Shown: one piece after another, positions 2,694 through 62,411 of the stretch
Position numbering within the stretch: position 1 is the stretch's first letter
Layout: the number at the start of each line of letters is the position of its first letter
Origin: Physcomitrium patens
Taxonomy: Eukaryota > Streptophyta > Bryopsida > Funariales > Funariaceae
NCBI RefSeq assembly: GCF_000002425.4
Contig: NC_037263.1
Coordinates: forward strand, 5,146,959-5,210,958
DNA length: 64,000 nt
Direction of reading: 5' to 3'
Position numbers and translations under genes: made by a program
The notes under the pieces: generated by a model
What the model was told of the DNA's origin: nothing
The model's database searches: none
The model's input: only the letters and a program-made list of their open reading frames with translations

Positions 2694-4541
2694 ACCTTAG
2701 TATCTACTGCATGTCCAAGTCTTTCATCCTTAAGGAAGAGCAGGTGGACCTTGTTTTTTCACGCAGCTGATCCGAGAAAAATTCTAATTGATTCCCGTTT
2801 TTTTATTCGTGTGAACATGCATCCAGTTCAACTATGTTATGGTGAAATGCTTGAATTAAGTTTTAGGATATAATTTATTTAATGGTTTTGCGGTATATTT
2901 AGAACGCTACCAGACAAGTGATGGGCATTGCGCCAAGATTTCCCCTGATCTGGCTGTTTAGGCTTTTGATATCAAGAGCCGGAGTTCAACGGATTTGAAA
3001 TCAAGATGAAAGTGCTTCCGGAGCCAATTTTTTTCTCCGACTGTGTATCAGGATCTCAAAAGGTATTTGTCATGAGTCTTGGTGCTGGTTGTTTCACTAA
3101 CCCGAAAATTGGGATTTGATGTGGTTAGGATAAACCACCACAATGTCTAACGTACAAAGTGCTTCGCAAAACATGATTTTCAAAAGTGGCATGGCGTAAG
3201 AATGGAACACAAATTTTTCACTAGTAGTTGTTTTGATCCTTAATGTCTGCAGTGGAGCTTTCAATTCCTAAAAGAAGCTTCAAGCAATTTTTTTGGGGAC
3301 CTCTAACTAAGATCATGCTTACTTGTTTATATATTGAAATCTGGAACTTCTAATGACTCATCCTAGGAAAGATTTGTTTCAATTTTTAAGAGACCACACT
3401 TCCGAGCTTCAAAATCAAGAGAATCCAACTTTCTCACTTCACACAGGATTTTAGTCTTACCAATTTGGACAATACTTACAAGTAGATCAACTGTAATGTA
3501 TTCAAACAACCTTGATACATTGTATCCTCTATTCACTGATGATATAGGTTTATTTACCAGTTTCTTTCTTCTTTAGGATGCAATAAGTACGTCATAAACC
3601 AACATTCTAAAGTAGTTAATTCCTCAACAATTTGGTTTTGTTATATTTGAGTCAACACATTGATAATAATAATATTATCTTATTATATTTTGTTTATTTG
3701 CTTTTATTAATTTTGTTTTATTTGAGCCAACATATTGATAATAATGACTTTGTTTTATTATATCACATATGTATATGTATTTTTTTATTCTTAATTTTAT
3801 TTGACAATAATTGTTAAATGGATTATAGTTTTGTTAAAAATAAATAAATTGTATATTGAATCTTTGTTAAACAATGAACATTTATAAGAAATTCTTATTT
3901 ATCTATTTAATTTCAATTTTTTCCACAAATTCTTTCAAAATAACCAAAATTAAGTCTATTACTTCTTTAATTTTGACACAATTATTAGGCCAATTAAAAA
4001 ATATGTAATTAATTAATACGTCGATTTAAAACTAAATTCGGTGGTATTTTTCTAAAACATCAAAATTGTAAGTATGAATCTTCCTAAAAACTTGATATAT
4101 TTTGTTTTATTAATCTATTATGATTTATATGAATCCATTTTATAATACTAAACTAACCATAATTTTAGACACAAGATAAGAAACAAATCAACACTTAGAT
4201 TGTTCCAATTTTAAGTAGGTAGAATTAACATATCTCTTGTTTTGTTCCTATAATTATACTATAGCAATTAGGTCTTTAGAAATTTATAGAAGAGATTTTA
4301 AGAACAAAAGATTTTCTTAGAAGTTTGAAGAATTTGTTATAAAAACTTATATTGAAATACAAATAATTTTGGACAAATACAAACTTTTATAATAAGTTTT
4401 AAAAAAAAATAAAATAAAAAAGAATATCTTAAATCTTATAGAAGTTTTAAAGATTTGAAGTCTTTTAAAGGTTTAGATGAAGTGGTATAAATATCTAAGA
4501 AGTTTTAGAAGATTTTAGAAAGTTACTAAAATTGAGGTGTA
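2694..4541. other. Intergenic region after RPL11, no gene seen
   Basis: This holds the 3' untranslated region of RPL11 (its end is not determinable) and then very AT-rich DNA with stops in all frames. A short direct repeat of about 35 bp occurs near 3640-3675 and again near 3718-3755, both containing a word like TTGAGYCAACAYATTGATAA. Nothing else is supported. Confidence 0.5.
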
Positions 4542-5060
4542 TATCAAGGACATGAGTCTCGAAGAAAGAAAATCTTCAATACATTCTTATATTACTAGAG
4601 AGAACTAGAGAGTCACTCAAAAAGTGATGTAATATTAAACTAGAATGGCTATTGCCAAAAACAAAAAGACGAGAAAGACTTGAAACAAAACTAAGGACTA
4701 GAAAGCTATTGATAAGAGTGAAGAAGGCTTCACTCTTGCCTCTATATATACTCTTAACTAAGAGCTACATGGCGATGTCCTATAGGACCTCCAAAATGTG
4801 TTGACTTTGTTAGCCTTATGTCTTAACTTGAAAGGCAAGTTATCTATATATGTGCCACATGGTTAGCTTGTTCCACAAGCTACTATACGCAGTTAACTTG
4901 TTAGTCATGTTTCTAACCTACAAACACATTTAAAGTCAAAACCACGTCTATGAAACTTCTAAGAAGCATCTCTAGAAGACTCTATGAAATTAATTTATAT
5001 TTACCTACTTCTACCTAATCATATAAGTAATTATTGAGATAAATATATATGTGTGTGACA
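4542..5060 (-). repeat. Solo LTR of the chromovirus family, minus orientation
   Basis: About 519 bp. Read on the minus strand it begins TGTCACAC, as the young element's LTR begins TGTCACGG, and it carries the same landmarks: the AGAAGCTTCTTAGAAG-like segment, a TATATATAG box, the palindrome around AAGAGTGAAG, the GGCAATAGCCATTCTAG segment and a tail ending near GACATGAGTCTC on the plus strand. The flanks GTGTA (4537-4541) and ATGTA (5061-5065) could be a target duplication with one mismatch. No internal domain lies next to it, so it is probably a recombination-derived solo LTR. Confidence 0.8.
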
Positions 5061-6925: not shown

Positions 6926-7817
6926 CTGTGCACCATCCTCGCAAATATCTAATCTGAAGCTGAACTAGTTACTCCTCAGCATTATCCGTACTTGAATCCA
7001 CTGATTCCAATTCTAAAGGCACATCATCGTCCTCTTGGTCCAATATATTTATTGATACTATGATCAATCTGGCAGTTAAATCTTTGTTACGTGCACCCAA
7101 TTCTCGCGCTTGGCTTTCCAATTGCAGAATTCAGATATCTTTTGCCTGTAATTGGTGTTGCTGTTGCTTCACATTCTTTTCCAATTCGCCAATTGAACCT
7201 TCTATTCGAGTAGACCTTTGTGACTATCGAATGTTGGCCAATTGAACACCATACCCTCGAAAGAGTCTATTGTCGCAAATAATAATTGTTTGGCTATATA
7301 TGTCATATGTCTATTTAATCCCAACGGCTTCTGAATGAAGTGCATCCACTCCATCAATTCTAGTGTAAGTGCATCCGCCGTCTATCATCTTTTATTCCTT
7401 TCTAGCAACGTCATCCTCCTTTGAAGTAATTCCCTGGATTGAAGTCTGAGGACTCTTCGGTTCCAACCACAAGCTCTCCTATTAATAGATGCAATATCTT
7501 ATTGAAGGTATTCTCATCAATTCCAATAGTCTTCCCTTTCACGACACTCGAATCATCCTCAGGGTCATAGTTCATCAAGTATTCTTCCAATAATTCTACG
7601 TCGATTGATGGTAAATTATTGGCCGCTCGTAGAAAGGGATATAATTGTGTACTTCTAAAGTCCTTCTGCCGTGTTGCATTCCAGCAAATTTCTAACCACA
7701 TGGATTCCATGTTTGTAAGAATACATAGAGAGAGAGCTCGTCCGTATTACTCTTTGACCTCACCCTTCTACCATCTTCTTCCTTGTTTGAGGCTGTCTTC
7801 ACTTTTTTCCTCGACAT
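6926..7817 (-). pseudogene. Additional ORF between integrase and 3' LTR (aORF), broken
   Basis: On the minus strand an ATG at 7817 opens a lysine-rich stretch starting MSRKKVKTASNKEEDGRR. After a frame change, 7710-7411 is open for 99 codons with WLEICWNA, FLRAANNLPSIDVELLEEYL, IGIDENTFNKILHL and GELVVGTEESSDFNPGNYF. After another shift it continues with LELMEWMHFIQKPLGLNRH. The low-stop, protein-like composition in the sense strand shows a former coding region. I see no signal peptide or membrane segment, so it is not an envelope gene. The IDE-T-NKILHLP-G-L layout recalls the plant-mobile-domain-like ORFs found downstream of pol in some plant Ty3 elements. That resemblance is from memory and the function is unknown. 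Confidence 0.6.
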
Positions 7818-23585: not shown

Positions 23586-23634
<49 letters not shown>

Positions 23635-23639
23635 TTAAA
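22898..23639. other. Poly-T run and AT-rich region, no gene seen
   Basis: A T run from about 22898 to 22924 is followed by AT-rich DNA and an A run plus (TA)n at about 23587-23628. There is no coding signal. Confidence 0.5.
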
Positions 23640-24110
23640 AAGGAATTAGAATGGCTATTACCAAAGATTAATAAACTAGAGACTCTTAAAACAAAAATAG
23701 AAGCAAGAAAAAAATTGAAAAGAACATAGAAGGCCTTACTCTTGCATCTATATATACTATCTAATTAGAACTATGTAGCAATATTTTGTAGGACCTACAA
23801 TACATGTTCAATTTGCAAGACATATGTCTAAATTACAAGATAAGTTTTTTATATGTGTGCCACATGGCCAACTTGTATCATAAGTAGCAAACATATGCAA
23901 TATATGGCTAACTTGTTGGCTAAATTTTAACCAACCAATTACCTATAAATACATATAAAGTCAAATCAAAATCTATGAAGCTTCTTAAAAGCTTCTTTTA
24001 AAGATATTATAAAATTTACTTACTTCTACTTACTTTTATCTATTTCTTTTAATTTAAATAAATAAATAAAAAATATATATATATATATTTATAATATTAT
24101 GTCATGAATA
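23640..24110 (-). repeat. Chromovirus LTR relic, minus orientation
   Basis: It contains, on the minus strand, the AGAAGCTTCATAGAT-like segment, TATATATAGA box, AAGAGTAAGG remnant of the palindrome and GGTAATAGCCATTCTAATT segment in the order of the family LTR. The 3' tail of the LTR is missing, replaced by the A/TA run at its left side. Confidence 0.7.
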
Positions 24111-24162: not shown

Positions 24163-24290
24163 TAGCAATAGCCATTTTAGTTTAATATTATATCACATTT
24201 GAGTAACTTTCTAGTTCTCTTCAGTAATACAAGAGGGTAATGAGGATTTTCTTTCTTCGAGATTCATGTCTTTGATAGTTTGACAAAAAT
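24163..24290 (+). repeat. Chromovirus LTR 3' tail, plus orientation
   Basis: Matches the end of the older LTR subfamily (GCAATAGCCATTTTAGTTTAA, then TTCGAGATTCATGTCTTTGATA). It is followed by TTTGACAAAAATGTT, which corresponds to the proposed self-primer site. It lies opposite in orientation to the relic on its left. Confidence 0.7.
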
Positions 24291-27611: not shown

Positions 27612-29157
27612 AATTGAGAAGAGTATACTTATAATATTAGAGCTTTGTCTTGTCTTGATTAAGAATAGATTATTCCTTTTTTTTGATAAGACATAAGCAT
27701 ATTAGAAGTTACAGATTATCTTCTTTTAAACTAATATTATTTTTAATATCTTCTTTATTTTTAAGTCTTTTTTTTTTTTTTTGTCTTGAGTGATATTAGA
27801 TATTTATTTTTCAAGTATTATCATGGCAGAGCTTATTGAAATGAAGAGTGCAATGGCACAAATATAAGAGCAATTGAAGGAGTTAATGCTTTTGATGCAT
27901 CAACTTAATTTACTACCACAAAAAATAACAAAAATGGTAGAAAGTGAAGATATAGATATGATTGGAGCTGCTTCAACATCTACATCCAATCATGTCCTTT
28001 TTCTTATTGTGGAACATCTTTTCAATACTAAAGAATCAAGAGTTATCCTACCTAAGAAGTTTGATGGTAGAAGATCCAAGTTTTGAGAATTTATCAATAA
28101 AGTACAACTTGTGATTGAACTTCTACTCCAAAGCTATTCAATTCAGGGATCATCAGTTAGATTCATTAATATACTTCTTTTAGATTCAGCATTATTATAG
28201 TTTTTATCTTTTTTTGAATGACAAGATCTAATATCAGATAATTTAGAGGCTTTTTTTAGCAAAGTTTTAATCCATGTATAGAAAGAATGATGCAACTTGT
28301 GTTGCAACCAACAAGATTTGTATTTTACAATAAAGCAATCGATTTGTAATATTATATGCTTCACAATTTTGACAACTTATAATTGATATCAAGTGGAATG
28401 ATGCTACATTTATTAGCCAATTTTTTTGTAGATTACTATATGAAGTAAAATAATTGATGCTTAACGTACCTAATCTTCAAACATTAAGTCAAGCAATGAC
28501 TTTATTGTAAAGTGTGACAATCAATTTTTTGAATTTCGATTTGAGAGTCTAGTAAAGTGAGCTTCAACATTACTATAATTCAATGTCAATACCAATGCCT
28601 CTTCAATACATACATTCAGAAGTAGAGGATACATAAATTGATGCGGTATGTTTCAAACCTCTTATTGAGCAAGAAAAAACTTATTGCCATCAGGAAGGTT
28701 TGTACTTATATTGTGGAAAATCTAAATACACTCCTTAACATTGTCCAAAGAAGCAATGCAATTATAAAATAGAGAGTATGAATTTCAAAAAAAATAATAT
28801 ATCAAAAAATAAGTTTTTCTAGTTATAATAGAGATCGTGTGGCTGGAACCTTCTACAATATCTAATGAAGCTCTTATTCTATCCTTAGAACCCTCTCCTT
28901 ATTTTATATTAAATATTATTTTAAGACCTATATATTATAAAGCCTCTGCCTTATTAGATTCAAGAGCCTCAACGTGTTTTTTACATGAAGAATTTGCTAA
29001 AAGTCTTAGCATATCTTTAGTAATGAATGCTAAACTTATTCATGTAGAAGTCATAGATAGTCGTTCGTTGTCTTTTAAAGATGTTACTTATAAAATCTTT
29101 CCTATAGAAGTAATAACTAATGGTCATAATAGCTTTGTAATATTTAATATCATTTGA
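27612..29157 (+). pseudogene. Chromovirus relic 2: leader, gag and protease
   Basis: The site after the LTR reads TTGAGAAGAGT, one base from TTGACAAGAGT of the young element. Gag begins at about 27823 (MAELIEMKSAMAQ) and follows the young gag closely, including a TGA at 28219-28221 at the same place as the young copy's stop. The knuckle LYCGKSKYTP is decayed near 28695. The pol frame (28837-29157) holds LLDSRASTCFLHEEFA, the protease site with DSG changed to DSR. The next copy's LTR interrupts it at about 29158. Confidence 0.85.
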
Positions 29158-29706
29158 TATCATTGACATATACAATTATTCCAATAGTTACTTATATGAT
29201 TAGGTAGAAGTAGGTAAATATAAATTAATTTCATGAAGTCTTCTAGAAAAGCTTCCTAGAAGCTTTATAAATATAATTTTTACTTTAGATGTATTTATAG
29301 GATAGAAACTTGGCCAACAAGTTAATCATGTATTGATAGCTTGTGGAACAAGTTAACTCCATGTAATAGCTTTTGGAACAAGCTAAATATGTAGTGCATA
29401 TATAGATAACTTGCCTTGTAAGTTAAGACATGTGGCTAGCAAAGTCAATTCGTTTTGAAAGTCCTATAGGACATTGCCACAAAGCTCGTAGTTAAGAATA
29501 TATATGGAGGCAAGAGTAAAGCCTTCTTCACTCTTGTCAACGTCTTTCTAGTCCTTAGTATTGTTCCAAGACTTTCTAGTCTTCTTGTTTTTGACAATAG
29601 TCATTCTAGTTCAATATTATATCATCTTTGAATGACTTTCTAGCTCCTTTTAATGATACATGTGTGTATTAAGGATTTTCTTTTGTTGAGATTCATGTCC
29701 TTGAAA
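29158..29706 (+). repeat. 5' LTR of chromovirus relic 3
   Basis: Begins near TGATATCATTGACATATAC and holds the family segments, with TATATATGGAGGCAAGAG at the TATA-palindrome position, and ends near CATGTCCTTGA. The old subfamily tail (ATATCATCTTTGAATGACTT) is present. Confidence 0.8.
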
Positions 29707-30993
29707 GTTTTATAATAGTGCTAACATACTATTTCTATCTGGTTTTAAAAGTAAGTGGATTATATCACTTCTATTATTATATTTTGAAGGTTACGGACTA
29801 TCCACCTTTAAATAAAAAATCTTATTTTTTTAATATTGATATTTTTCTTAAAGAAAGTGGATTACCAATCTTTGTGGAATTTTTTATTAGAGATTATAGA
29901 TTACCTTCTTCTAATTAAACTTTTTGAATTTTTTTGAATTATCTATAAAAGGAAAGATTATAGATGCTACTCTTAGCGGAAGTGAAAATAGATTTATAAC
30001 TATTACAAGTCTTCATGAACTTGTCAACACTCTAAGAGTATAAATTTCATGTATTTCCAATGTGAATCATGGAAGTACTATACTTATGCCTATAAAAAAA
30101 GTTTAGAGTTTACGGCAAAAAGTTATAAAGTCAAAGGAAGCAAGTAGATCGACCTCACAACCAAATTCAAAGAGTTTTGCTTCTACAAGTATGATAGGGG
30201 CAAGGATTAGTATGCCTAAGAAGTTTGAAGGAACAAGAACAAAATTTTGAGGATTTTTGTAACAAGTCAAGCTCTATCTAAGATTGCATTTTTTCTAATA
30301 TCTCAATGGATTTACTCAAGTCAAATTCATAAGCCTACTTCTATCAGGAAATACTTTCTCTTGGTTTGCACCTTTAATGAAAAAATATTTGCGACTCTTT
30401 TATGATTTGAATTCATTCTTAGAAGTGTTTATGATTACATTTACAGAAAGTGATCAAGAAGAAGTAGTAGAGACCAAACTCTTATCTATATAATAAGGAT
30501 CACAATCATCCACTATATATGGTGCTGAATTCTAAAACCTCACTTGTAATGTGGATTGAAATGACAATGCACTTATCAATCAATTTTGATATGGATTGAA
30601 GGATAGTGTCAAAGATTTGTTATTAACAATGTCAAAAGTAAAATCTTTAGAAAAATTATTACTCAAGCCATTGCATGTGATAATCAATTATTTGAAAGGC
30701 ATCAAGAATAAAGACTTGGCTAGAGAGGAAGAAGTGAAGTAATGGAAGTAGCTCCTAAGTTTTTTGAAACACATTCATCAAGGCTGAAAAAAATGTAAAT
30801 TGATATGATACATTTTAAACTTTTCATAAAGTAAGAAAAGACTCGACGTTGCCAAGAAGGTTTGTGTTTATATTGTAAAGAAGCTAAGTATACTACTCAA
30901 CATTGTCCAAAGAAGCAACACAATTATAAAATGAGGAGTTTAATTATCAAAGAAGATAAGGTGTAAGAAAACAAGTTTTTCCACCTACAATAG
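29707..30993 (+). pseudogene. Chromovirus relic 3: leader and gag
   Basis: Leader to about 29940, then a gag-like region to the TAG at 30991-30993. The capsid has LLSGNTFSWFAPLMKKY near 30345, where the young element has its in-frame TGA; here the codon is sense. The knuckle LYCKEAKYTTQHCPKK lies near 30875. Frame breaks are frequent. The N-terminal half differs from the young element's gag, so this is a separate subfamily. Confidence 0.7.
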
Positions 30994-41464: not shown

Positions 41465-41781
41465 ATGCTAAAGAGATGAAGAACCAATAAGCACCAGATT
41501 TAACTCAAGAACTTTCATTTGTAGACTCACTAGATAAGACATTACAATTGTCACAACCTTCAAGATGAAAATATTAAAATAAAGATCCTCAAGAATAACT
41601 TGTCATTCTTCAAATAGATGGTAAGATACAATATGTTTGATATCACGACCTTAGAAGAGATTCTCAATATTTGGTGATTTTATTAGAGGTATGAATAATT
41701 CTTAACAGTGTTATAAATGTTTTATTTGAAGGAAGTTATGAAGGCATCAACATCGAACAAATAATAGATTGGTCTTCTTAT
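41465..41781 (+). pseudogene. Downstream conserved ORF of relic 5
   Basis: Second copy of the post-chromodomain ORF: DLTQELSFVDSLDKTLQLSQ, then ILQIDGKIQYV, YHDLRRDSQYLVILLEV and VLFEGSYEGINIEQIIDWSS. Changes from relic 3 often keep the amino acid. The young chromovirus is inserted at the end of this segment. Confidence 0.6.
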
Positions 41782-42104
41782 TGTCACGGACATACATATA
41801 ATTACCTATATGAATAGATAAAAGTATGTAAAAGTAGGTTAATTATGTAATATCTTCTAGAGAAGCTTCTTAGAAGCTTCATAGACGCTGCTTTGACTTT
41901 ATAGGAGTCTATAGTTGACTTTTAGGTTAGAAACTTGGTCAACAAGTTAGCCATGTGCCACGCATGTTGGAAGCTTAAAGAACAAGCTAACTACGTGGTC
42001 CATCCATTGGAAAACTTGCCTTGCAAGCAAAGGCATGTAGCCTAGAAAGTCAACATATATTGGAGGTCTTATAGAACATCGCCACGTGGCTTCTAGTTAG
42101 ATAG

Positions 42105-42136
42105 TATATATAGAGGCAAGAGTGAAGCCCTCTTCA
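42105..42136 (+). promoter_or_regulatory. TATA box and predicted transcription start
   Basis: TATATATA at 42105-42112, followed 31 bases after its first base by a CA step (42135-42136). A TATA-to-start distance near 32 and a pyrimidine-A start are the plant norm, so A42136 is the best predicted 5' end of the element RNA. This is not measured. Confidence 0.55.
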
Positions 42137-42142
42137 CTCTTG
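42117..42142 (+). promoter_or_regulatory. Perfect 11-bp palindrome next to the TATA box
   Basis: Arms CAAGAGTGAAG (42117-42127) and CTTCACTCTTG (42132-42142) flank the 4-base spacer CCCT. The same feature is kept in almost every decayed LTR of the family, including the minus copy at 4542-5060, although flanking sequence has drifted. It could be a dimeric protein-binding site in DNA or, if transcribed, a 5' hairpin. Confidence 0.75.
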
Positions 42143-42314
42143 TCAACTCCTTTCTTGCTTCTAGTCTAGTTTCAAGGGTCTCTAGTTTTCTTGTATTTTG
42201 GCAATAGCCATTCCAGTTTCTTTCTTAATATACATATTTCTATTTTTTCCTATTTCTTTTTGAGAAAAGTCTCACTTACTCTTTAGCTTTCATCGAGTTC
42301 TTGTCCCTGACAGA

Positions 42315-42325
42315 TTGACAAGAGT
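42315..42325 (+). other. Proposed self-primer binding site
   Basis: TTGACAAGAGT starts two bases after the 5' LTR, the usual primer-site position, but lacks the TGG complementary to a tRNA CCA end. It is the exact reverse complement of ACTCTTGTCAA at 42136-42146, the predicted first 11 bases of the RNA. Tf1 of fission yeast primes reverse transcription from the first 11 bases of its own RNA in this way. Confidence 0.7.
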
Positions 42326-42524
42326 ACACTTACAATATTAGAGCTTTGTCTTTTCTTGATTAAGAGTGGATTACCCCTTTTTCTTGATAAGACATAAGCG
42401 CATTAGAAGTTGCGGATTACCCTCTTTTAAACTGATATTGTTCTTAGTATTTTCTTTGTTATCAATTCCTCTCTTCTATTTGTTTTGAGCGTTGTTAGAC
42501 ATCTTCTCTTTTCTAAGTGCTACT

Positions 42525-43532
42525 ATGACAGAGCTTGTTGAAATGAAGAGTGCAATGGCACAGATGCAAGAACAATTGAGGGAGTTAATGCTTGCGATGC
42601 ATCAACTCAATTTACCACCACAAGGAGCAAAAAGAATGGTAGGAAGTGAAGATATAGAGATGATTGGGGCTGCTTCAACATCTGCACCAAACCATGTCCC
42701 TTCTCCCAGAATGGAACACCCTTCGAGTGTTAGAGAACCGAGAGTTGCCTTGCCCGAGAAGTTTGATGGTACCAGATCCAAGTTTCGAGGATTCATCAAT
42801 CAGGTCCAACTAGTGATTGAACTTCAACCCCAGAGCTATCCAACTCCAGGGTCACAAGTAAGATTCATTGATACACTTCTTTCAGGTTCAGCATTGTCAT
42901 GGTTTTCATCTTTTCTTGAATGACGAGATCCAATATTGGATAATCTGGAGGCTTTTTTGGCGGAGTTTCGATCCATGTTTGGAGAACATGATGCAATTCA
43001 TGTTGCAACCAACAAGATCCGTATTTTGCGACAAGGCAATCGATCAGTAACATTATATGCTTCGCAATTTCGACAACTTGCAACTGATATCAAGTGGGAT
43101 GATGCCGCACTTGTGAGTCAATTTCTCTACGGATTACAATATGAGGTAAAGAAATTGATGCTTAATTTACCTGATCCTCAAACATTGAGTCAAGCAATTG
43201 ACTTTGCTGTGAAGTACGACAATCGACTTTTTGAATTTCGATCCGAGAGTCGCACAAGTGGGCCTCAACGTTACTACAATTCAATGGCAACACCGACGTC
43301 TCCTCAACACATACCTTTGGAAGTAGAGGATATGCAAATTGATGAGGTACGTTTCAAACCTCTTACTGAGCAAGAAAAGTCTCGTCGTCGACAAGAAGGA
43401 TTGTGCTTATATTGTGGAGAACCTAAGCACACTGCTCAACATTGTCCAAAGAAGCAACGTAACTACAAAATGAGGAGTACGGCTGTCAAAGAAGACAGTA
43501 TGTCGGAAAACGAGTACGTCCAGCTACAATAG
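42525..43532 (+). CDS. Gag of the young chromovirus, with one in-frame TGA
   Basis: Structural protein that packages element RNA. The start is ATG 42525 (MTELVEMKSAMAQMQEQL), the site kept in relic 2; an upstream ATG at 42492 is in the same frame. The capsid region follows (PEKFDGTRSKFRGF, LLSGSALSWFSSFLE), then TGA at 42921-42923, and the frame continues without shift from 42924 (RDPILDNLEAFLAEF, SQFLYGLQYEVKKLML) to TAG at 43530-43532. A CCHC knuckle CLYCGEPKHTAQHC lies near 43410-43450. The full frame would be 335 codons with the TGA read through. The stop could be a nonsense mutation (TGG to TGA) or a leaky UGA-C. Confidence is for gag identity. Confidence 0.85.
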
Positions 43533-43537
43533 GGACC

Positions 43538-46500
43538 GTGCGGCTGGAATCTTGTACAACTTCTAATAAAGGTCCTATCCTCTCCTCAAAACCATCTCCT
43601 TGTTTTATAATAGATGTGCGTTTAAGACCTAATAATTACAAAGCCTCTGCCTTGGTAGATTCAGGAGCCTCATCTTGTTTTTTAGATGAAGAATTTGCTA
43701 GATGTCATAGAATATCATTAATACAAAAAACTAAACCTGTACACGTAGAAGTCATAGATGGTCGTCCGTTGTCTTCTGGAGATGTAACTCACGAAACACT
43801 TCTTGTAGATGTAGTAATAAATGGTCATAGTAGTTGCGTAATTTTTAATATAATTAGATCTCCCTCTAATCCAGTAATTTTAGGCTTATCATGGTTAGAA
43901 AAGTATAATCCTCGAATAGATTGGATTTCTCGTAAACTTGATTTTCCTCAGAGCATTTGTAACAGTTCTATTAACCAAGTAAAAAACCATGAGTCTAGTA
44001 TAGTAAAATTCACACCTATAGGTGCAAAAGCATTTATACACGCAGCAAAAGAAGGATCAACTTTTGCTATTTATGCTGCACCTATTTCTGAAAGCGTAAA
44101 GACTTCAAGTGGCATTCCAAGTCAATATCAGGATTATCAAGACGTTTTTGAGAAAAAGAATGCAGATATTCTTCCTGAGCATCGCCCATACGATTGTTCA
44201 ATCGATCTCAAGGAAGGAACTCAGCCACCATTTGGACCAATTTACAGTTTATCGCAAGATGAGTTGGCTGAACTCAAGACATATATTGACGAGAATTTAG
44301 CGAAGAATTTCATACGCCATTCAAAATCTCCAGCAGGAGCTCCAATTTTATTCGTAAAGAAAAAAGATGGATCTTTACGAATGTGTGTTGACTATCGAGG
44401 ACTCAACAAGATCACAATCAAGAACAGGTATCCATTACCTTTGATATCAGGACTCCTTGACCAGTTAAATCAAGCTAAGATCTATACAAAAATAGATCTA
44501 AGAGGAGCATATAATCTAGTACGGATCAAAGAAGGAGATGAATGGAAGACTGCGTTTCGAACCAGGTACGGGCATTTTGAATATAATGTCATGCCTTTTG
44601 GACTCACGAATGCACCAGCTACTTTTCAACATCTCATGAATGATGTATTTTGTGAATTCTTAGACAATTTTGTCGTCTGCTACCTAGACGATATCCTGAT
44701 TTATTCTAAGAATGTTGAAGAACATGAAATACATGTTCGTCAAGTATTACAAAAACTCAGAGATGCAGGATTGTACGCCAAGATGGAAAAGTGTGTATTT
44801 CACACTACTCAAGTTGACTTTTTAGGATACATCATTTCAAATGATGGTCTTATGATGGATTCTAAGAAAGTCCAAACAATCATGGATTGGAAGATTCCAA
44901 AGACTGTAAGAGATGTCCAATGTTTCTTGGGATTTGCCAATTACTATCGGATCTTCATCAAAGACTTCTCACGAGTTGCAGCTCCACTTACACGCTTGAC
45001 TAGTAAAGATAAATTCCAATGGAATCAAGAAGCGGAAGCAGCATTTGAAGCCTTGAAGACATCGTTTGTCTCTGCACCAGTCTTATATCGTGTTGACTTT
45101 TCCAAGGCATTTTTTATAGAAACAAACGCATCGGATTTTGCCTTGGGTGCAGTTCTATCACAAATGGGAACAGATGACAAACTCCATCCGATAGCTTTTC
45201 ATTCAAGAAAATTCTCAGCAGCCGAGATCAATTATGAGATCCACGATAAAGAACTTCTTGCAATCGTGGATTCTTTTCAAGAATGGCGTCATTATCTAGA
45301 AGGTGCTTCTAGTCAAGTCATTGTGTATACAGATCACAAGAACCTCGAGTATTTCATGTCAACACGCGTGTTGAATCGTCGTCAAGCTCGTTGGAGTATG
45401 TCTTTGTCAAGATTCGACTTCATTATCACTTATCGGCCAGGAAAACAACAAGGTTTGTCCGATGCCCTGTCTAGACGTTCTTATTTTGTACCAAAAGAAG
45501 GAGATGCAGCTTTTGAGCAACAAAGAACGGTCCTCTTGAAACCGGAGCAATTTCATCTCCGAGCAGTGAAATCAACATTGACTGTTGATTCAACTTTTCT
45601 CAAGCAAATCCAGTCCAGTATGTCCTCAGACCCTCTTGTTCATGATATCGAGAATAATTCTTCCAAGTCTCATGATTCTTCTAAGTTCGAGTTCAAGAAT
45701 AATCTATTATATTTTGAAGGACGCCTATATGTTCCAGAAGGAAAAGCACGTTTGCGTGTTCTTCAAGCACGTCATGACTTTCCAGCAGCAGGGCACTTTG
45801 GATATAATAAGACTTTGGAACTCATATCAAGAGATTTTTGGTGGCCACAAATGTGGAAGTCAGTCAAAGACTTTGTACAATCATGTGATATTTGTTCAAG
45901 ATCAAAAATTCCTCGACATCCACCTTACGGACTTCTTCAGCCATTACCTATACTAGAACAACCATGGTCTTCTGTTTCTATGGATTTCATCACAGATCTT
46001 CCAAACTCAAGATCTTATGATTCTATATTTGTGATAGTAGATCGTTTCACCAAGATGGCACATTTTATGCCATGTACAAAATCTATCACAGGTGAAGAAA
46101 CAGCTAAGCTTTTCATTGATAATATCTATCGCTATCATGGATTGCCTAAAGATATCATATCGGATAGGGGAACTCAATTTGTGTCGAGATTTTGGAGGAC
46201 TCTTTTCAAGATTTTAAAAGTGGACATAAAGCTATCTTCAGCTTTCCATCCTCAAACTGATGGACAAACAGAGCGCGTAAACCAAGTCTTGGAACAGTAT
46301 TTAAGGTGTACCATCAACTACCAACAAGATGATTGGACAAACCTTCTGCCATTGGCAGAGTTTGCTTATAATAATACGGTACATTCCTCCACGCAACAAA
46401 CACCTTTCTTTGCCAATTATGGCTATCATCCACGACTTGATACTTTTGATTTTTCAAAAGTTGATAATCCTGCAGCAGAAGATATGGCAAATCGGTTGTT

Positions 46501-47026
46501 AGAGTTACATGCAATAATGAAGGCGCAGTTGAAGAAAGCTCAAGAACGACAAAAGATAAATGCAGATGTATATCGTAAAGAGCAACCACAACTCAACGTG
46601 GGTGATAAGGTATGGCTACTTCGTCGCAATATCAAGACCACTCGACCTTGTGACAAATTGGACTATCGTAGGCTTGGCCCTTTTTCTGTTTCTGAACAGA
46701 TCAACCCAGTTGCATATCGGTTACATCTACCGGAGTCAATGAAGATCCATCCTGTATTCCACGTGTCTCTTCTTGAACCATATAAGACAGTGGATATACA
46801 AGGAAGAAGACAAATGCCACCGCCTCCTATAGAAGTAGATAATAATGAAGAATTTGAGGTGGAAGAGATATTAGACTCAAGGCGGCGCCGAAATAAGCTG
46901 GAATATCTTGTTCATTGGTGCGGATATGATATTAGTGAGCGCACATGGGAGCCATCCAGGAATCTAGCAAATGCATCAGCTAAAGTCAAAGTTTTTCATC
47001 AACGACATCCATCAAAACCAAGATGA
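43538..47026 (+). CDS. Pol of the young chromovirus: PR-RT-RH-IN-chromodomain
   Basis: 1162 codons without a stop. Rough residues: protease ALVDSGASSCF at 39-49; RT with [20 protein letters not shown] and active site YLDD at 382-385; RNase H, whose first catalytic Asp is Asn at 530 (ETNASDF); integrase zinc finger starting near 745 (H-H-C-C, ending CDICSRSK), core SMDFITDLP near 815, SDRGTQFVSRFW and HPQTDGQTERVNQ with the DDE residues present; GPY/F-like RRLGPFSV near 1045; chromodomain about 1104-1152 with EFEVEEILDSRR, YLVHWCGYD and RTWEPS. It lies in the -1 frame relative to gag. Its first codon is GTG at 43538, five bases after the gag stop; two relics have ATG there. The chromodomain presumably steers integration to marked chromatin. 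Confidence 0.95.
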   Translation: MRLESCTTSNKGPILSSKPSPCFIIDVRLRPNNYKASALVDSGASSCFLDEEFARCHRISLIQKTKPVHVEVIDGRPLSSGDVTHETLLVDVVINGHSSCVIFNIIRSPSNPVILGLSWLEKYNPRIDWISRKLDFPQSICNSSINQVKNHESSIVKFTPIGAKAFIHAAKEGSTFAIYAAPISESVKTSSGIPSQYQDYQDVFEKKNADILPEHRPYDCSIDLKEGTQPPFGPIYSLSQDELAELKTYIDENLAKNFIRHSKSPAGAPILFVKKKDGSLRMCVDYRGLNKITIKNRYPLPLISGLLDQLNQAKIYTKIDLRGAYNLVRIKEGDEWKTAFRTRYGHFEYNVMPFGLTNAPATFQHLMNDVFCEFLDNFVVCYLDDILIYSKNVEEHEIHVRQVLQKLRDAGLYAKMEKCVFHTTQVDFLGYIISNDGLMMDSKKVQTIMDWKIPKTVRDVQCFLGFANYYRIFIKDFSRVAAPLTRLTSKDKFQWNQEAEAAFEALKTSFVSAPVLYRVDFSKAFFIETNASDFALGAVLSQMGTDDKLHPIAFHSRKFSAAEINYEIHDKELLAIVDSFQEWRHYLEGASSQVIVYTDHKNLEYFMSTRVLNRRQARWSMSLSRFDFIITYRPGKQQGLSDALSRRSYFVPKEGDAAFEQQRTVLLKPEQFHLRAVKSTLTVDSTFLKQIQSSMSSDPLVHDIENNSSKSHDSSKFEFKNNLLYFEGRLYVPEGKARLRVLQARHDFPAAGHFGYNKTLELISRDFWWPQMWKSVKDFVQSCDICSRSKIPRHPPYGLLQPLPILEQPWSSVSMDFITDLPNSRSYDSIFVIVDRFTKMAHFMPCTKSITGEETAKLFIDNIYRYHGLPKDIISDRGTQFVSRFWRTLFKILKVDIKLSSAFHPQTDGQTERVNQVLEQYLRCTINYQQDDWTNLLPLAEFAYNNTVHSSTQQTPFFANYGYHPRLDTFDFSKVDNPAAEDMANRLLELHAIMKAQLKKAQERQKINADVYRKEQPQLNVGDKVWLLRRNIKTTRPCDKLDYRRLGPFSVSEQINPVAYRLHLPESMKIHPVFHVSLLEPYKTVDIQGRRQMPPPPIEVDNNEEFEVEEILDSRRRRNKLEYLVHWCGYDISERTWEPSRNLANASAKVKVFHQRHPSKPR

Positions 47027-47251
47027 AAACCTCTCTTATAAAAGAGACAAGATTGAGGAAGTTATGAAGGCCTCAACAGTGATCAAATAACAGGGTGGTC
47101 TTCTCGCCCTGGAATGGGACACTATCGATGGCTAAGAGGACCCATCAACTATCTTCGAAGAGAACAAAGATCAGAGTATGTAGCAAATACAATTCGCCGC
47201 ATATTAGATTTTCTCAATATATAATCACCGCTCCTCGTGGAACTCGTCCCT

Positions 47252-47262
47252 AGAAGGGGGGG
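47252..47262 (+). other. Polypurine tract of the young chromovirus
   Basis: AGAAGGGGGGG lies three bases before the 3' LTR, the normal site for plus-strand priming. Confidence 0.8.
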
Positions 47263-47265
47263 TAA

Positions 47266-47795
47266 TGTCACGGACATACATATAATTACCTATATGAATA
47301 GATAAAAGTATGTAAAAGTAGGTTAATTGTGTAATATCTTCTAGAGAAGCTTCTTAGAAGCTTCATAGACGCTGCTTTGACTTTATAGGAGTCTATAGTT
47401 GACTTTTAGGTTAGAAACTTGGTCAACAAGTTAGCCATGTGCCACGCATGTTGGAAGCTTAAAGAACAAGCTAACTACGTGGTCCATCCTTAGAAAACTT
47501 GCCTTGCAAGCAAAGGCATGTGGCCTAGAAAGTCAACATATATTGGAGGTCTTATAGAACATCGCCACGTGGCTTCTAGTTAGATAGTATATATAGAGGC
47601 AAGAGTGAAGCCCTCTTCACTCTTGTCAACTCCTTTCTTGCTTCTAGTCTAGTTTCAAGGGTCTCTAGTTTTCTTGTATTTTGGCAATAGCCATTCCAGT
47701 TTCTTTCTTAATATACATATTTCTATTTTGTCCTATTTCTTTTTGAGAAAAGTCTCACTTACTCTTTAGCTTTCATCGAGTTCTTGTCCCTGACA
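47266..47795 (+). repeat. 3' LTR of the young chromovirus
   Basis: 530 bp, partner of 41782-42312. The few differences include A/G at the TTAATTRTGTAAT position and a one-base length difference near 47489. Confidence 0.96.
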
Positions 47796-47813
47796 CTTAT
47801 CCTACTATGGAAC

Positions 47814-53322: not shown

Positions 53323-53935
53323 GGGACACTATCAATGGCTGAAAGGACCTATCAACCATCTTCAAAGAGAACAAAGATCAGAATATGTGACAAATATAAT
53401 TTGTTGCATCTTAAATTTTCTCAATATATAAAGGCCTCTCTTTGTGGACTTCATTCCTAGGAAGGGGGGGGGGAGGATAATATCATGGATATGTATAAGT
53501 ATTCTATTAAATACCTATATAATTAGATAGAAGTAAGTATAAAAAAGATAAAAATAAATTAATTACATAAGACCTTCTAGAGAAGCTTTCTAAAAGCTTC
53601 ATAGATGCTTCTTTAACTTTACATATATTTGTAATTGATTGATAGGTTAAAAAACTAATCAACAAATTAATCACATGTTAATAGCTTGTAGAACAAGCTA
53701 ACTATATAGCGCATATATAAAAAACTTGCCTAGTAAGTTAAGATATGTATCTTGCAAAGTCAACATATTTTGGAGGTCCTATAGGACATTGTGACTTAGC
53801 TCTTAATTAAGAATATATAAGGACGCAAGAGTGAAGTCTTCTTCACTCTTGTGAATATCTTTTTAGTCCTAAATCTTGTTTGAAGATTATCTATTCTTTT
53901 TATTTTTGGCAATAGCTATTGTTGCAAATGTAATT
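53323..53935 (+). repeat. 3' untranslated region and LTR of chromovirus relic 5
   Basis: 53323-53480 matches the young element's 3' region (GACACTATCRATGGCT, then a purine tract AGGAAGGGGGGGG). An LTR follows from about 53483 with AGAAGCTTTCTAAAAGC, the palindrome remnant GCAAGAGTGAAG-TCTT-CTTCACTCTTG and GGCAATAGCTATTG at its end. It is the continuation of relic 5 after the two inserted elements. Confidence 0.8.
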
Positions 53936-57134: not shown

Positions 57135-60100
57135 TTAATCGAGCCTTTGAAGGTCAAAGAAATACAAGGTGCTGGTGGATCTCTGAATTTGGAGGTTTTG
57201 TAGTGACAGCTGATCTCCATTGTGAAGTTCCATGGGATGCAACATTTCATTACCATTCAGCTGAGCTTGTGCCATGGAGAGCATTTTGATCACAACAAAC
57301 CCCTTCTCATCCACGCATTTGTTGGCTGGCATGTAGACGATCATGGATTGCGGCTCAATGCAATCCTCGGTTAGACACTGTATATCATCCCCGAATCCAA
57401 AGCTGTTGACGCCAGCCTTCAGGAAGTGTACCCTCCATTTTCCAGGAGTCTGACTTGTTACTCTGCAGGTACCTGTGGGAGTGCCATATGTCAACCGCAC
57501 CCTCAGGCTATACTTGGCCATCTGAATCTCTATAAAGAAAGGAGTGGCGCTTTCAAACGAGATCGACTCCACCCCAGAGTGTGTCAACTCTCTCAAAGAA
57601 ATTACAGGACTGTCCAGGTGAGTCTCGCCTTTCAAGTCGATCGTCCTTCTCGGTTTAATTGCCTTCCGTACATTTAAGTTCGGTAGTGTTTCTTGTGCTG
57701 GAATTCTCTTGATTAGTTTTGAGAATAGCCACCAGGAACAAAATACGCTGGCCAGTGTGGTGAACATCTTCTGGTGAAGTAGCTTGCTCTCGATGTGTTT
57801 GAAATTCCAGCCCTGGTTTACTCCAGTAGTTGAAGGTTCAACTTTGGACCCTCTTTTTGGTCCTTTTATAGGTTCTGATTGTACAAGTTGAAGCGTCTCG
57901 TCGAATCCTTGACCCTTGTAGCTCTCCTGTTCCTGATAGAGAAGTTAAATTTATACTGTAAAGTTGCAGTGCCTCTTGCGATGATTTTGTTATTAATAAC
58001 AATCTACATATCAGGGAAGACCTACTCTCATTTTGCAAGCAGCAGGATGATGAGTTCAATATTTAAAGCTTTGCTCACCTCATCTCTGGAGAAAGTGATC
58101 TTAGGCGTTTGCGTGTCAACATCGAGACGTTTTGGAAGAAGGGGCGCTTTCTGTCCTGCGAATGGTGGTCCTTGGTCAGGCTCAGAATAGCCTCCATTAA
58201 TGTAAGTGTTCTCCTAGGACCTTGTTAATGCTTTAAGAGCCCAATTAAAATTTCAAAAAAAGTTGTAATTTGTTCTCAAAATACGCCCTCAAATGAACAG
58301 GTAAAGCTGGGATAACAAAATAAATGCAGAAATCGAAAATGCTAGATGTGTGCAGTAGCAGAGTTATAAACTATTCCGCTATCATAATACGTATTGCTGT
58401 GAAGTATCCCTTGCAGTTGAGAATCCGTTTCATTGAAATTTAGTAAGAGAATTTCGTGCAGACTGAAGGCCCAAACCCAATTGGACTTTCAAATGACCAC
58501 AAAAATTTCTTCTGCAGCGCAAATATGTAAGATGGAAAACAATAGACGCTCAAAGTTATTAGAGGGAGTGCATCAATTATTTTAGGTGTGAGTTTTTATA
58601 AAAGTGTAACCGTTTATGCACTGGGTTTCGATAGGTTGCGAACTTTACGGTATCAGGTTTTCAGATAATTTCTCCTTGTCATATTGGACAAATTTGTCAA
58701 TAACTAATGTCTCTTTGAGAAATAAAGGGTGCAGTTTTACCTGGACACCCCAGCTTATTGAGGCTTCTTGAGCTCTGTCGGATAATGCAGTCGTGGTAGC
58801 TCTGCGAAGTAGAATAAGTTCTTGTTTCAGTTTGTAAATGAGATTGTTTCTAGGGTCACGATCACCTCCTTGTGTATCGCCTTGAATTGTGGTCGCTTGG
58901 ACAGCGTATCTCAGAGTACTGAGGGTTTCTCGCAAATCCTGATTCAATCACGGATGGGTAGGTTGGTTAATACTCTTCAAACTCAATTGTCAAACCTTTT
59001 GCTCCCTTGAGTCTGAGTTTCAGGGAATACATGTTCAGTAGCTGATATATTTGCAACCATGAACGTTTTGTTGTTGCCGCCTAAAGAATCTCTTAATAAC
59101 CAAGTTAGTACTGAGCTGCGGTATGACGGGTGGGTTCCCTTTGAGAGGCTCAAAATGACCTGTCTTGCCCAAGAAACACAGCAAGGGTGAGATGTCTTTA
59201 AGGAAATCCTGTTTCATGTTTGATGGAAATCCTCTATTATCAGACTGAAATTAATAGTTCCAGCAACAAAGAGGTATTCACCTCTAACCTCATTTAGCAT
59301 CGTTAGTGATAAATTTATAGCTCGAGATTCCTCCCCTCGAGTAGCTGTCTCTACCGTCAGCAAGTCAGATGGCCTCTCACTTCCTGCATCCACACATTCT
59401 AGCAGATCATACGTATGTAGATTCATTATAAAATCATGAGGAATTGTAAGAAATGTGAAGCCATGACTACAATGCTCATGTACCGTGACCAAGTCGTGGT
59501 GAAAAAAATATGACACAGTAATAATGCCACAAGTAACTAAAGCTAGTTGGTTGAATAACCTGCAAGGTCCACGAGATTAATATTACATGTATCCGTTATT
59601 GTGATTTCTGAAGTTCTTTCTGTCTGTATCAGACACAATTGCTTGTTAGGTGAGGCATCATTTTAAAGAAGGATGGTAAATACATGCTTTGGTCTAGGAA
59701 TAATAATAATAATAATACTTAAAAGGATGAGACCGGAAACCTTGGTGATTCTGATAGTAAACAAGGCATGGCTTCGACTAGAGTGTGCATTTGCATCTGT
59801 AGTGTGTGTTGTGCGTAAAGCAGAGCCATATTTTAAAAACGTCTTAATGTCCATCCAAGTTTCGACGTTCTTCCACATTAAGCCTTCCACATAAGGCCCA
59901 TTCACTGGATGTTCTCGCACTTTCAGGTATTGCTGTTCCTTGGCGAAGTCAGTCTGTGCTGCTTGAAATGATTTCCAGTTGGGCATGCGCTTTGACCCTC
60001 TTTGTACTCCTAGAACCTCCTTAGGAGGGGACTGTTGAACTAGCTGTGTTGGGGAACCGCGTTTAAAGTCACTCAAGGACCCTGAAGAAGGAACGTGTTT

Positions 60101-62411
60101 CAAGCCCAAGCCTTGCTTTGAACCACGAGCTTGCTTCAAATCACCCAGAGACCCCGTTCTGGTCATACTAGTTCTGCCCTTCACACTTATTTCTGGTTCA
60201 GACTGTTTTTCTTCAGGCGATTTATCTGCTACTAAAAGGTCACGGATTCTCTCATTATAAATTTCGAAGTAACATACCTGCACTGCCAAATTTCAAGTTC
60301 GATAGTCTGGAAATTCATTGCTTGATTGTCGGAATGACTCAGAGTGGGAAACTTGACATGTGAACTGAAATTCAGACTAGGAATGCGTGTAAAGCAGCTT
60401 GTGGAGGAAGCAATTCATTACCTCCGCCTTGATGTCCTCTCCTTGTTCCCGTTTTTCTGCTATGCGAGTCATTAATTCGCTGCTTAGTCTTGGCATCTAC
60501 CAAGCGACAGCAATTGACTTGTTATACATATACTCGAACTAAAACTGCACTATCTACAAGCTAAATGGCTGACTTTGAAGGTCACATGCAAGATTCTGGC
60601 GTGAAATTTTATTTTGATTCTGACAAGTTTGGCTTTATTAAATCTGGGAATTTTTTTGTAGGTTTGGCATGAATTGAATTGAATTGAATTGAAATGGAGT
60701 CCTCCGAGGATGCTATTATATCTATAAGAGCATGCAGAAGATGAGAAAAGCAGAATTGGTAAGATCCCACACGTAGTATTGTTATGACACTCTTAGTACA
60801 GCAGTTGAGCTTACAATGCCTCGTCCTTGATAGGAACTGTCTCCCAACATAGTATATGTTTTGCCAGAGCCCGTATGTCCGTAAGCAAGGATCTGTTGAT
60901 ACAAAAATAATCGGGTGTATATACAACAAATATTAGTTGAAACATCTTCGATAAGATAGCATGGACCTGATGAAGTAGCGTAGACAGTTTATAGGGAGTC
61001 AGACATCACTCACGGTTGTATTCAAGCCGTCCAGGGCATGTTCAATACACGGAACGCCTAACACCTCAAACATTGCATTCTGAGAGTCATTTTTGTCGGA
61101 ATTAGTCTGCTCAATTGCCAAGCTGTCATCCTGCTCACGAAAGTTGACAAAGTGGTTCAAATGATTTCCATGTCCACTTGATCATTCTAAAAGGGCCACG
61201 ATATAACTCTTTAGTTCAAAATGAGGTGATAAGGTTCACAACATAGATAATTCTATTCGAATCGAGGCACCTCCAAGTATTGTCGAAATTAAAAGTGAGA
61301 TGAGGCACCTGCACGTAGTGTGCGGTGAATTTGAGCGACTCCTGGCGTTGGCCATGCTCGTTATCACGAACAATCACAGTCCTGTCATCCACCGTTTCGA
61401 TCACCTGTTGCATGCCGTGATAGCTCAGAGATATTGAAAAATGTCTTCCGTAGAACTTATCTTCCTCTGTCATCTTAAGTGTCAAATGGTATGTGGAATG
61501 CCATCTTCTGTTAGTCAATTTGAAAATTTCCTGCCAAGGCTTACAATAGAAGCAATTGGTAATCTATCAATCCACGAGCGTGTCAAGTCTTTGTACCGGT
61601 GGCAGAGGTCTCTCTTCATCAGCGGTGAAGGGGCGGATTCGCACCACCACTTTGACCTGCAAAAGCCACCAACCGCCACCCAAGATTTCATCTCTCACGC
61701 TCTCTCATGTAAATCTTGTGGAGAGATATGGATAAGGGTAGGAGAAACATTGGTCTTTGCAATCTAAATTAGGTTTGGATTATCGCAACACTCAGCAGAT
61801 GTTTAACTATGCTTCTAATTTGCCGCGTTAAGAGTAGATTACCACCTTATTAAGGTCGCCAGGAAGTATAGATTTGTATGTATCTGCAACCTTCAAATGC
61901 GGAGATGCGTCTTGGGATGGGCTACGCTCCTCCGAACCTCCGCATCCAACTCACCGGTTACTCTCATTTCAGTTTACGGACTAAAAAGACGACCTCAAGG
62001 CCGTCTAGACTAAAGATTCCGATGGATGTCCATAACACAGAGCACATATTCCAACTTCGTGCAGAGAGACGTAGCGGAAATACTCTCAACAGTGTGTTAA
62101 TTGCCCAATTAGGTCGTTTATCGCTGATTGGGAGTTAAATCAGGAAAGTATGGAGTAAGTCTTTAGGGCATACTTAAATAGTAGTGTCTACTTTGCCCCA
62201 GGTTTAGCTTCGTTCGAAGCGGATCATTCGGGGTGTACATGTGCTTCCTGACATCAGGAATCGCTGGTGCGAGACCATTGATTTTAGACCCGGGCGGCCT
62301 AGCATCGTGAATCCTTGGCGGCAGGCTTCTTCTCTGATCCGATGTACACCCTGCATCATCATATGAACCCTTGTCTGCAACTCGAGAAAACACCCCGAAA
62401 CGTTTAGCCAT
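57135..62411 (-). CDS. Kinesin-3-like motor protein, about 13 exons
   Basis: A microtubule motor of about 865 residues. Exons (minus strand, high to low): 62411-62192 (N-terminal extension), 61656-61597 ([15 protein letters not shown]), 61404-61271 (junction to the next exon unresolved), 61130-61014, 60892-60815 (P-loop [13 protein letters not shown]), 60496-60422, 60277-59741 ([15 protein letters not shown], a Ser/Gly-rich insert, [13 protein letters not shown]), 59623-59560 plus 59383-59289 (switch II LVDLAG joined to SER across a phase-1 intron, then INLSLT), 59159-59031 ([20 protein letters not shown]), 58938-58741 ([23 protein letters not shown]), 58180-58079 and 57932-57135. From 61130 on the phases agree exactly. 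[11 protein letters not shown] with [11 protein letters not shown] fits kinesin-3. No FHA domain is seen; the last 265 residues form an unrecognised, probably globular domain. The motor lies at the N-terminus, so movement is probably plus-end directed. Confidence 0.88.

Follow-up and report, generated by a model that had tools for sequence, protein, structure and literature searches.

A recently active moss chromovirus that likely primes its reverse transcription with the 11 bases at the 5' end of its RNA

In the fission yeast elements Tf1, Tf2, Tj1 and Tosmo, which carry a chromodomain, the 5' end of the element's RNA pairs with a primer binding site (PBS) beside the LTR, according to the accessible text of two sources (PMC10085805, PMC4600332), and Tf1 RNA is described in the first of these as requiring three duplexes. 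Among plants, self-priming has been predicted for 12% of the LTR elements analysed by Neumann (2019, PMC6317226), comprising moss and clubmoss chromoviruses of the Tcn1 clade and copia elements of the TAR lineage; the accessible part of that paper gives the prediction for the majority of Tcn1 elements and for no other plant chromovirus group. In the portions of the literature available, Physcomitrium patens elements with group I chromodomains (PpatensLTR) are placed in the Tcn1 clade (Novikova 2010, PMC2864245; Novikov 2012), and neither tRNA priming nor self-priming evidence is reported for the clubmoss element SM-Tcn1 (PMC2864245). The evidence in print for plant self-priming, as far as the accessible text of PMC6317226 goes, consists of prediction from matches within single elements.

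The window, by which we mean the whole 64,000-nucleotide stretch of P. patens DNA analysed here, contains an LTR element at 41782-47795 that resembles the Tcn1 clade in its moss host, its group I chromodomain, its fungal/vertebrate-like reverse transcriptase (RT) and its predicted self-priming, but differs in a hairpin across the U3/R border that is not mentioned in the accessible text of PMC2864245 and PMC6317226. With the Tf1-type elements it shares the chromodomain and the predicted pairing of the RNA 5' end with a PBS beside the LTR, whereas the full three-duplex pretzel is unsupported. With the TAR lineage (Houba and Osr-1, as covered in the accessible part of PMC6317226) it shares a plant host and predicted self-priming, but that lineage belongs to another superfamily, Ty1/copia. 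The parts of the element, in window coordinates, are as follows.

41777..41781, no strand assigned: target site duplication CTTAT, read from the sequence, with its second copy at 47796-47800
41782..42312, plus strand: 5' LTR (TGTCA...TGACA), with 99.1% identity to the 3' LTR across 530 aligned bases
42105..42112, plus strand: TATA box TATATATA, from whose start the primer begins 31 bases on
42115..42127, plus strand: U3 arm of the hairpin, GGCAAGAGTGAAG, from the fold (0/300 shuffles equally stable) and covariation
42132..42144, plus strand: right hairpin arm, CTTCACTCTTGTC, within which the RNA is predicted to start, from the fold and covariation
42136..42146, plus strand: predicted RNA 5' end and self-primer ACTCTTGTCAA, the exact complement of the PBS, with covariation
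42313..42314, plus strand: spacer GA, two bases long as in all nine elements compared
42315..42325, plus strand: predicted PBS TTGACAAGAGT, from the self-match and covariation
42525..43532, plus strand: gag reading frame, with a stop at 42921-42923 in the window copy
43463..47026, plus strand: pol frame (RT, RNase H, integrase, chromodomain), from the frame and from Pfam on three pieces
46802..47023, plus strand: chromodomain piece (PF00385, E 2.7e-16)
47252..47262, plus strand: purine tract AGAAGGGGGGG preceding the 3' LTR, read from the sequence
47266..47795, plus strand: 3' LTR, from the LTR-LTR comparison
47598..47627, plus strand: complete U3/R hairpin of the 3' LTR, from the fold, with the second primer copy at 47619-47629

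The gag stop was present in one of the 28 readable close copies (30 fetched), consistent with that one being the window's own; as the stop is private to the window copy, copies open at 42921-42923 exist. The gag and pol frames overlap at 43463-43532, pol lying in the -1 frame relative to gag.

On sequence grounds, the element appears to be a Tf1/sushi-type, Tcn1-like chromovirus. Pfam identified RVT_1, RNase H, integrase and chromodomain in three pieces of pol, and the chromodomain, aligned to that of CDYL, has F, W and Y at what we take to be the places of the aromatic cage, as expected of group I. A 425-residue RT-RNase H piece had 7,964 protein matches; the organisms named among the 120 listed were frogs, a fish, a lizard, fungi and one bacterial-labelled metagenome bin, with most of the 120 lacking an organism name and none naming a seed plant. 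In an RT tree built without a named Tcn1 element or a seed-plant chromovirus, the window element grouped with eight related loci (L001-L008, described below) and Absidia (support 96/95). The RT appears to group with Tf1/sushi-type elements, as an earlier note made from the sequence alone had proposed. That note knew of no described self-priming plant element, a claim of novelty that does not hold, since self-priming has already been predicted for Tcn1 elements of mosses and clubmosses, a kind that this moss element resembles, as well as for TAR copia (PMC6317226, accessible text).

The PBS at 42315-42325, offset by two bases from the LTR, is the exact reverse complement of the 11 bases at 42136-42146; these letters and coordinates, and the distance of 31 bases from the start of TATATATA, had been correctly recorded. 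Within the window, TTGACAAGAGT is present only at 42315, and ACTCTTGTCAA occurs at 42136, at 47619 in the 3' LTR and at 29530 in an older LTR. With the LTR dinucleotide-shuffled, 27 of 20,000 trials gave a complement of at least 11 bases located 0-5 bases past the LTR; with random adjacent segments taken from the repeat-rich window, 88 of 20,000 did. The coincidence of the self-match with the RNA start predicted from the TATA box should lower the chance odds further. The element shows the feature from which self-priming has been predicted in print, a complement of at least 10 bases to the LTR positioned 0-5 bases past the 5' LTR (accessible text of PMC6317226). It does not have the TGG-type PBS, 0-5 bases past the LTR, of the tRNA-primed plant chromoviruses (Reina, Tekay, CRM and Galadriel); TGG is absent from the 54 bases past the 5' LTR, leaving the 3' end of a whole tRNA without its usual pairing place. 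Partial versions of the PBS that had been noted elsewhere in the window were also recovered, with 10 of 11 bases in relic 2 (TTGAGAAGAGT at 27614) and, by reading, 9 of 11 in the plus tail (TTGACAAAAAT near 24280) and 8 of 11 in relic 3 (TTTATAATAGT near 29712).

Comparative material came from bacterial and archaeal genome contigs scanned with an RT alignment (A1); the scan gave 40 loci that are evidently eukaryotic DNA in bins. Two cyanobacterial bins carry plant-type retroelements (L001-L008, L022 and L029), with 71 RT matches in one bin and 6 in the other, evidently as contamination and perhaps from moss hosts. These ten are the moss-like loci among the 40, and likely derive from mosses. 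Eight of them (L001, L003, L004, L005, L006, L008, L022 and L029) reach a presumed LTR end (...TGACA or TAACA) and, together with the window element, make up a nine-element set, to which a single bin contributes seven of the eight added loci; L002 and L007, which start inside the element, were dropped. Identity to the window element is 80% for L001 and 64-67% for L002-L008. Viral contigs, scanned with the RT piece as well as with alignment A1, yielded no relatives. Among the other loci, the more distant L016 has a self-complementary PBS of 14 bases (L016:59-72 and 7267-7280) at the LTR end and a palindrome at the primer copy, with no TATA box found; L009, with a full LTR pair, lacks both a TGG where the PBS should lie and a self-match of at least 10 bases; L035 does not reach an LTR, and chance-like inverted matches occur among the remaining non-moss-like loci.

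An exact LTR:PBS match of 11-12 bases is present in eight of the nine elements, a count in which the loci were recognised via the match itself, related rows are not independent, and the one failing element, L005, was found by inspection and is included. Five primer sequences occur among the eight: ACTCTTGTCAA, CAGTCTCGACAA, AAGGCGAACAA (in four loci), AAGGTGAACAA and ACTCTTGATCAA. L005 retains a match of only 7 of 11 bases, and its R start looks decayed. The spacer between LTR and PBS is two bases long and the TATA box starts 30-33 bases upstream of the primer in all nine elements, and in every one of the eight exact cases the match begins 31-33 bases past TATA and ends at ...CAA. In a count on the eight aligned elements, from which L005 is absent, pairing in the primer:PBS helix reaches 97.7%, and 8 of the 11 pairs have changes on both sides. 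For the structure composed of primer:PBS and the LTR-end duplex, none of 500 shuffles reached any of five measures, and sliding the structure by 1-3 columns dropped the pairing from 93.4% to 32-52%. The RT tree, in which L022 and L029 are absent, has three branches, and the primers differ between branches and within two of them. Covariation of the R start with the primer site, which had been suggested as a check on self-priming, is therefore borne out in eight of nine elements and across five sequences. Persistence of the match while 8 of 11 positions change provides strong comparative evidence for pairing.

We conclude that the window holds a recently active moss chromovirus that likely primes its reverse transcription with the 5'-terminal 11 bases of its RNA (probability about 0.9, from sequence comparison). 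Priming by the RNA 5' end appears well supported by the covariation of R start and PBS, the constant TATA spacing, the lack of a tRNA-type TGG and the apparent grouping of the RT with Tf1/sushi elements. In the proposed mechanism, pairing of the RNA 5' end with the PBS would be followed by a cut past ...CAA, presumably by the RNase H of the element, and the 11-mer would then be extended. If, as in the known retroviral cycle, the primer serves as template for the plus-strand copy of the PBS, each cycle would renew the PBS from the RNA 5' end, so that R start and PBS would stay matched while both change and the edges of the match would mark the primer.

Priming by a host tRNA, half-tRNA or tRNA fragment, with the likeness of LTR and PBS accidental, would accord with the use of tRNAs by most plant LTR elements and of half-tRNAs by about 2% of them (PMC6317226, accessible text), but is very improbable here, given the absence of TGG described above and the variation of the PBS among elements; each PBS fits its own LTR, which tRNA priming leaves unexplained. 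Even less credible is the reading that the match is a by-product of a promoter palindrome, a caveat raised in the earlier note because the first 7 primer bases lay within it. The overlap itself is confirmed and its extent is larger, since the palindrome covers primer bases 1-9. However, L004 has a 12/12 match without the palindrome, and elsewhere the match includes the final AA, two bases beyond it, which answers the caveat.

Self-priming by the RNA 5' end also agrees with the central duplex of the Tf1 type, primer:PBS, in the window element: for RNA modelled from 42136 onward, the MFE and the centroid structure both place the primer on the PBS. The two Tf1-like flanking duplexes were not found in this element (194 and 98 of 500 shuffles as good), and its whole 5' leader folds no better than shuffles (z -0.96, 36/200). 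Across the nine elements, a duplex between the LTR end and R is supported in six (at most 22/500 shuffles as good), L005 using a different part of R, is weak in L029 (57/500) and is absent in the window element (194/500) and L001 (482/500); support for the third Tf1-like duplex is limited to one of the nine. Of the Tf1-like leader fold that had been anticipated, the primer:PBS pairing stands, and the flanking duplexes and the stability of the whole leader do not. These models suggest that the window element is Tf1-like in its primer, with the full pretzel unsupported.

The palindrome forms a hairpin of 12-13 bp with a 4-base loop across the U3/R border. It is present in seven of the nine elements, with 0/300 shuffles equally stable in each; L004 is without it (48/300 as stable), and L005 no longer has it in its first LTR (51/300) and retains it in the LTR at the other contig end. 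In the seven elements 85 of 86 pairs are formed, four of them G-U, and two-sided changes occur at 9 of 13 positions, two of which are outside the primer, in the upper stem. A fixed-column hairpin count on A2, which is out of register for the window element and L001 and includes L004, gave 74.7% of cells paired versus 63.4% in shuffles, none of 500 being as high. Such folds and paired changes indicate that the hairpin is probably a selected RNA structure. A U3/R hairpin covarying with a self-primer appears to be new within the literature searched, as no description was found in titles and opening abstracts of the open-licence literature. The palindrome of L016 hints that the arrangement may be older than the moss group.

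Since transcription is predicted to start inside the right arm, only the 3' end of the RNA would contain the whole hairpin. The 5' end, lacking the left arm, would carry a free primer copy and the 3' end, with both arms, a folded one; the folded copy would be hidden, so that only the 5' copy would reach the PBS. The corresponding region of the 3' LTR (47560-47680) has a fold z of -3.73, with 0/200 shuffles equally stable. In two-piece folds joined by a poly-A linker, which may itself pair with the U-rich leader, the mean probability of pairing with the PBS was 0.61 for the 5' copy and 0.00 for the 3' copy when the U3 arm was present and the linker was 60 A, versus 0.20 and 0.39 without the arm. 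At a linker length of 200, the respective values for 5' and 3' copies were 0.31 and 0.00 with the arm and 0.12 and 0.04 without. In these models, the U3 arm abolishes pairing of the 3' copy with the PBS under both linkers, and the preference seen without the arm is linker-dependent.

We consider it possible, at somewhat less than even odds, that the hairpin masks the second, 3' primer copy. A different role, in first-strand transfer, in RNA 3'-end formation or as a promoter at the DNA level, has about an even chance: the hairpin lies between the TATA box and the start, and in the RNA it lies near the 3' R, the place where transfer and 3'-end formation would occur. The covariation of the hairpin with primer and PBS is what masking predicts, although the other roles are still compatible with it, and the G-U pairs suit RNA better than DNA. 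That the U3 arm instead arises repeatedly, and unselected, by faulty reverse transcription copying the PBS or primer would fit both the PBS sense of the arm and the situation in L005, where arm and PBS share a variant and R is decayed. This origin is unlikely, however, as the upper stem, which belongs to neither primer nor PBS, has two-sided changes at 2 of 4 positions.

Returning to masking, we tentatively propose that self-priming chromoviruses may carry their pairing code threefold, in the primer, in the PBS and in a covarying U3 arm that folds away the 3' primer copy, in which case the RNA could discriminate between the primer sequence at its 5' end and the identical one at its 3' end. Hiding of the 3' copy would answer a dilemma of every self-priming element, the presence of the primer sequence at both RNA ends when it is the 5' copy that has to be used. 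Masking is testable in a moss family with many near-identical copies, and the arrangement can be searched for in the Tf1-type elements of fungi and vertebrates.

A search of the P. patens genome with the LTR and leader gave 2,234 first-look candidates, the best 40 of which were scored and were all 99-100% identical. Spacer, PBS, primer and hairpin were letter-identical in all 30 fetched close copies, one of which is the window's own, and with these sites invariant covariation is not demonstrable within the close copies of P. patens. The family is probably RLG1, with which its abundance and chromodomain fit; RLG1 is described as an abundant P. patens family in the accessible text of PMC7466625. 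The PBS pattern of the L003/L006/L008 type had one match in the genome, indicating that this primer is not abundant in P. patens. A second, older LTR subfamily (B), 71-75% identical and with the same primer region, occurs in the window at the following places.

29184-29720: subfamily B LTR
4530-5034, minus strand: subfamily B LTR
53500-53920: subfamily B LTR
23620-24044, minus strand: subfamily B LTR

For the B family the genome search gave 8,214 first-look candidates, of which 40 were scored. Among 21 rows (20 fetched copies and the window's), the PBS was exact in 6, the primer in 7 and both in 2, and the differences among these older copies look like scattered decay and do not show covariation.

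Finally, the window contains a kinesin gene at 57135-61740 (minus strand) with a kinesin-3-like motor, which matches KIF16B, KIF13, KIF14 and KIF1 proteins. Its protein aligns along the full query length with one from Physcomitrium patens at 90% identity, against 35% for the next match, from Marchantia, which makes the host a moss, as the earlier note, working from the letters alone, had no way of knowing. The longest ungapped blocks between the kinesin protein and the window DNA were 99.6% identical over 266 residues and 98.5% over 67 residues; identities in the remaining blocks were 59-100%, with low values where a block apparently runs across an intron.
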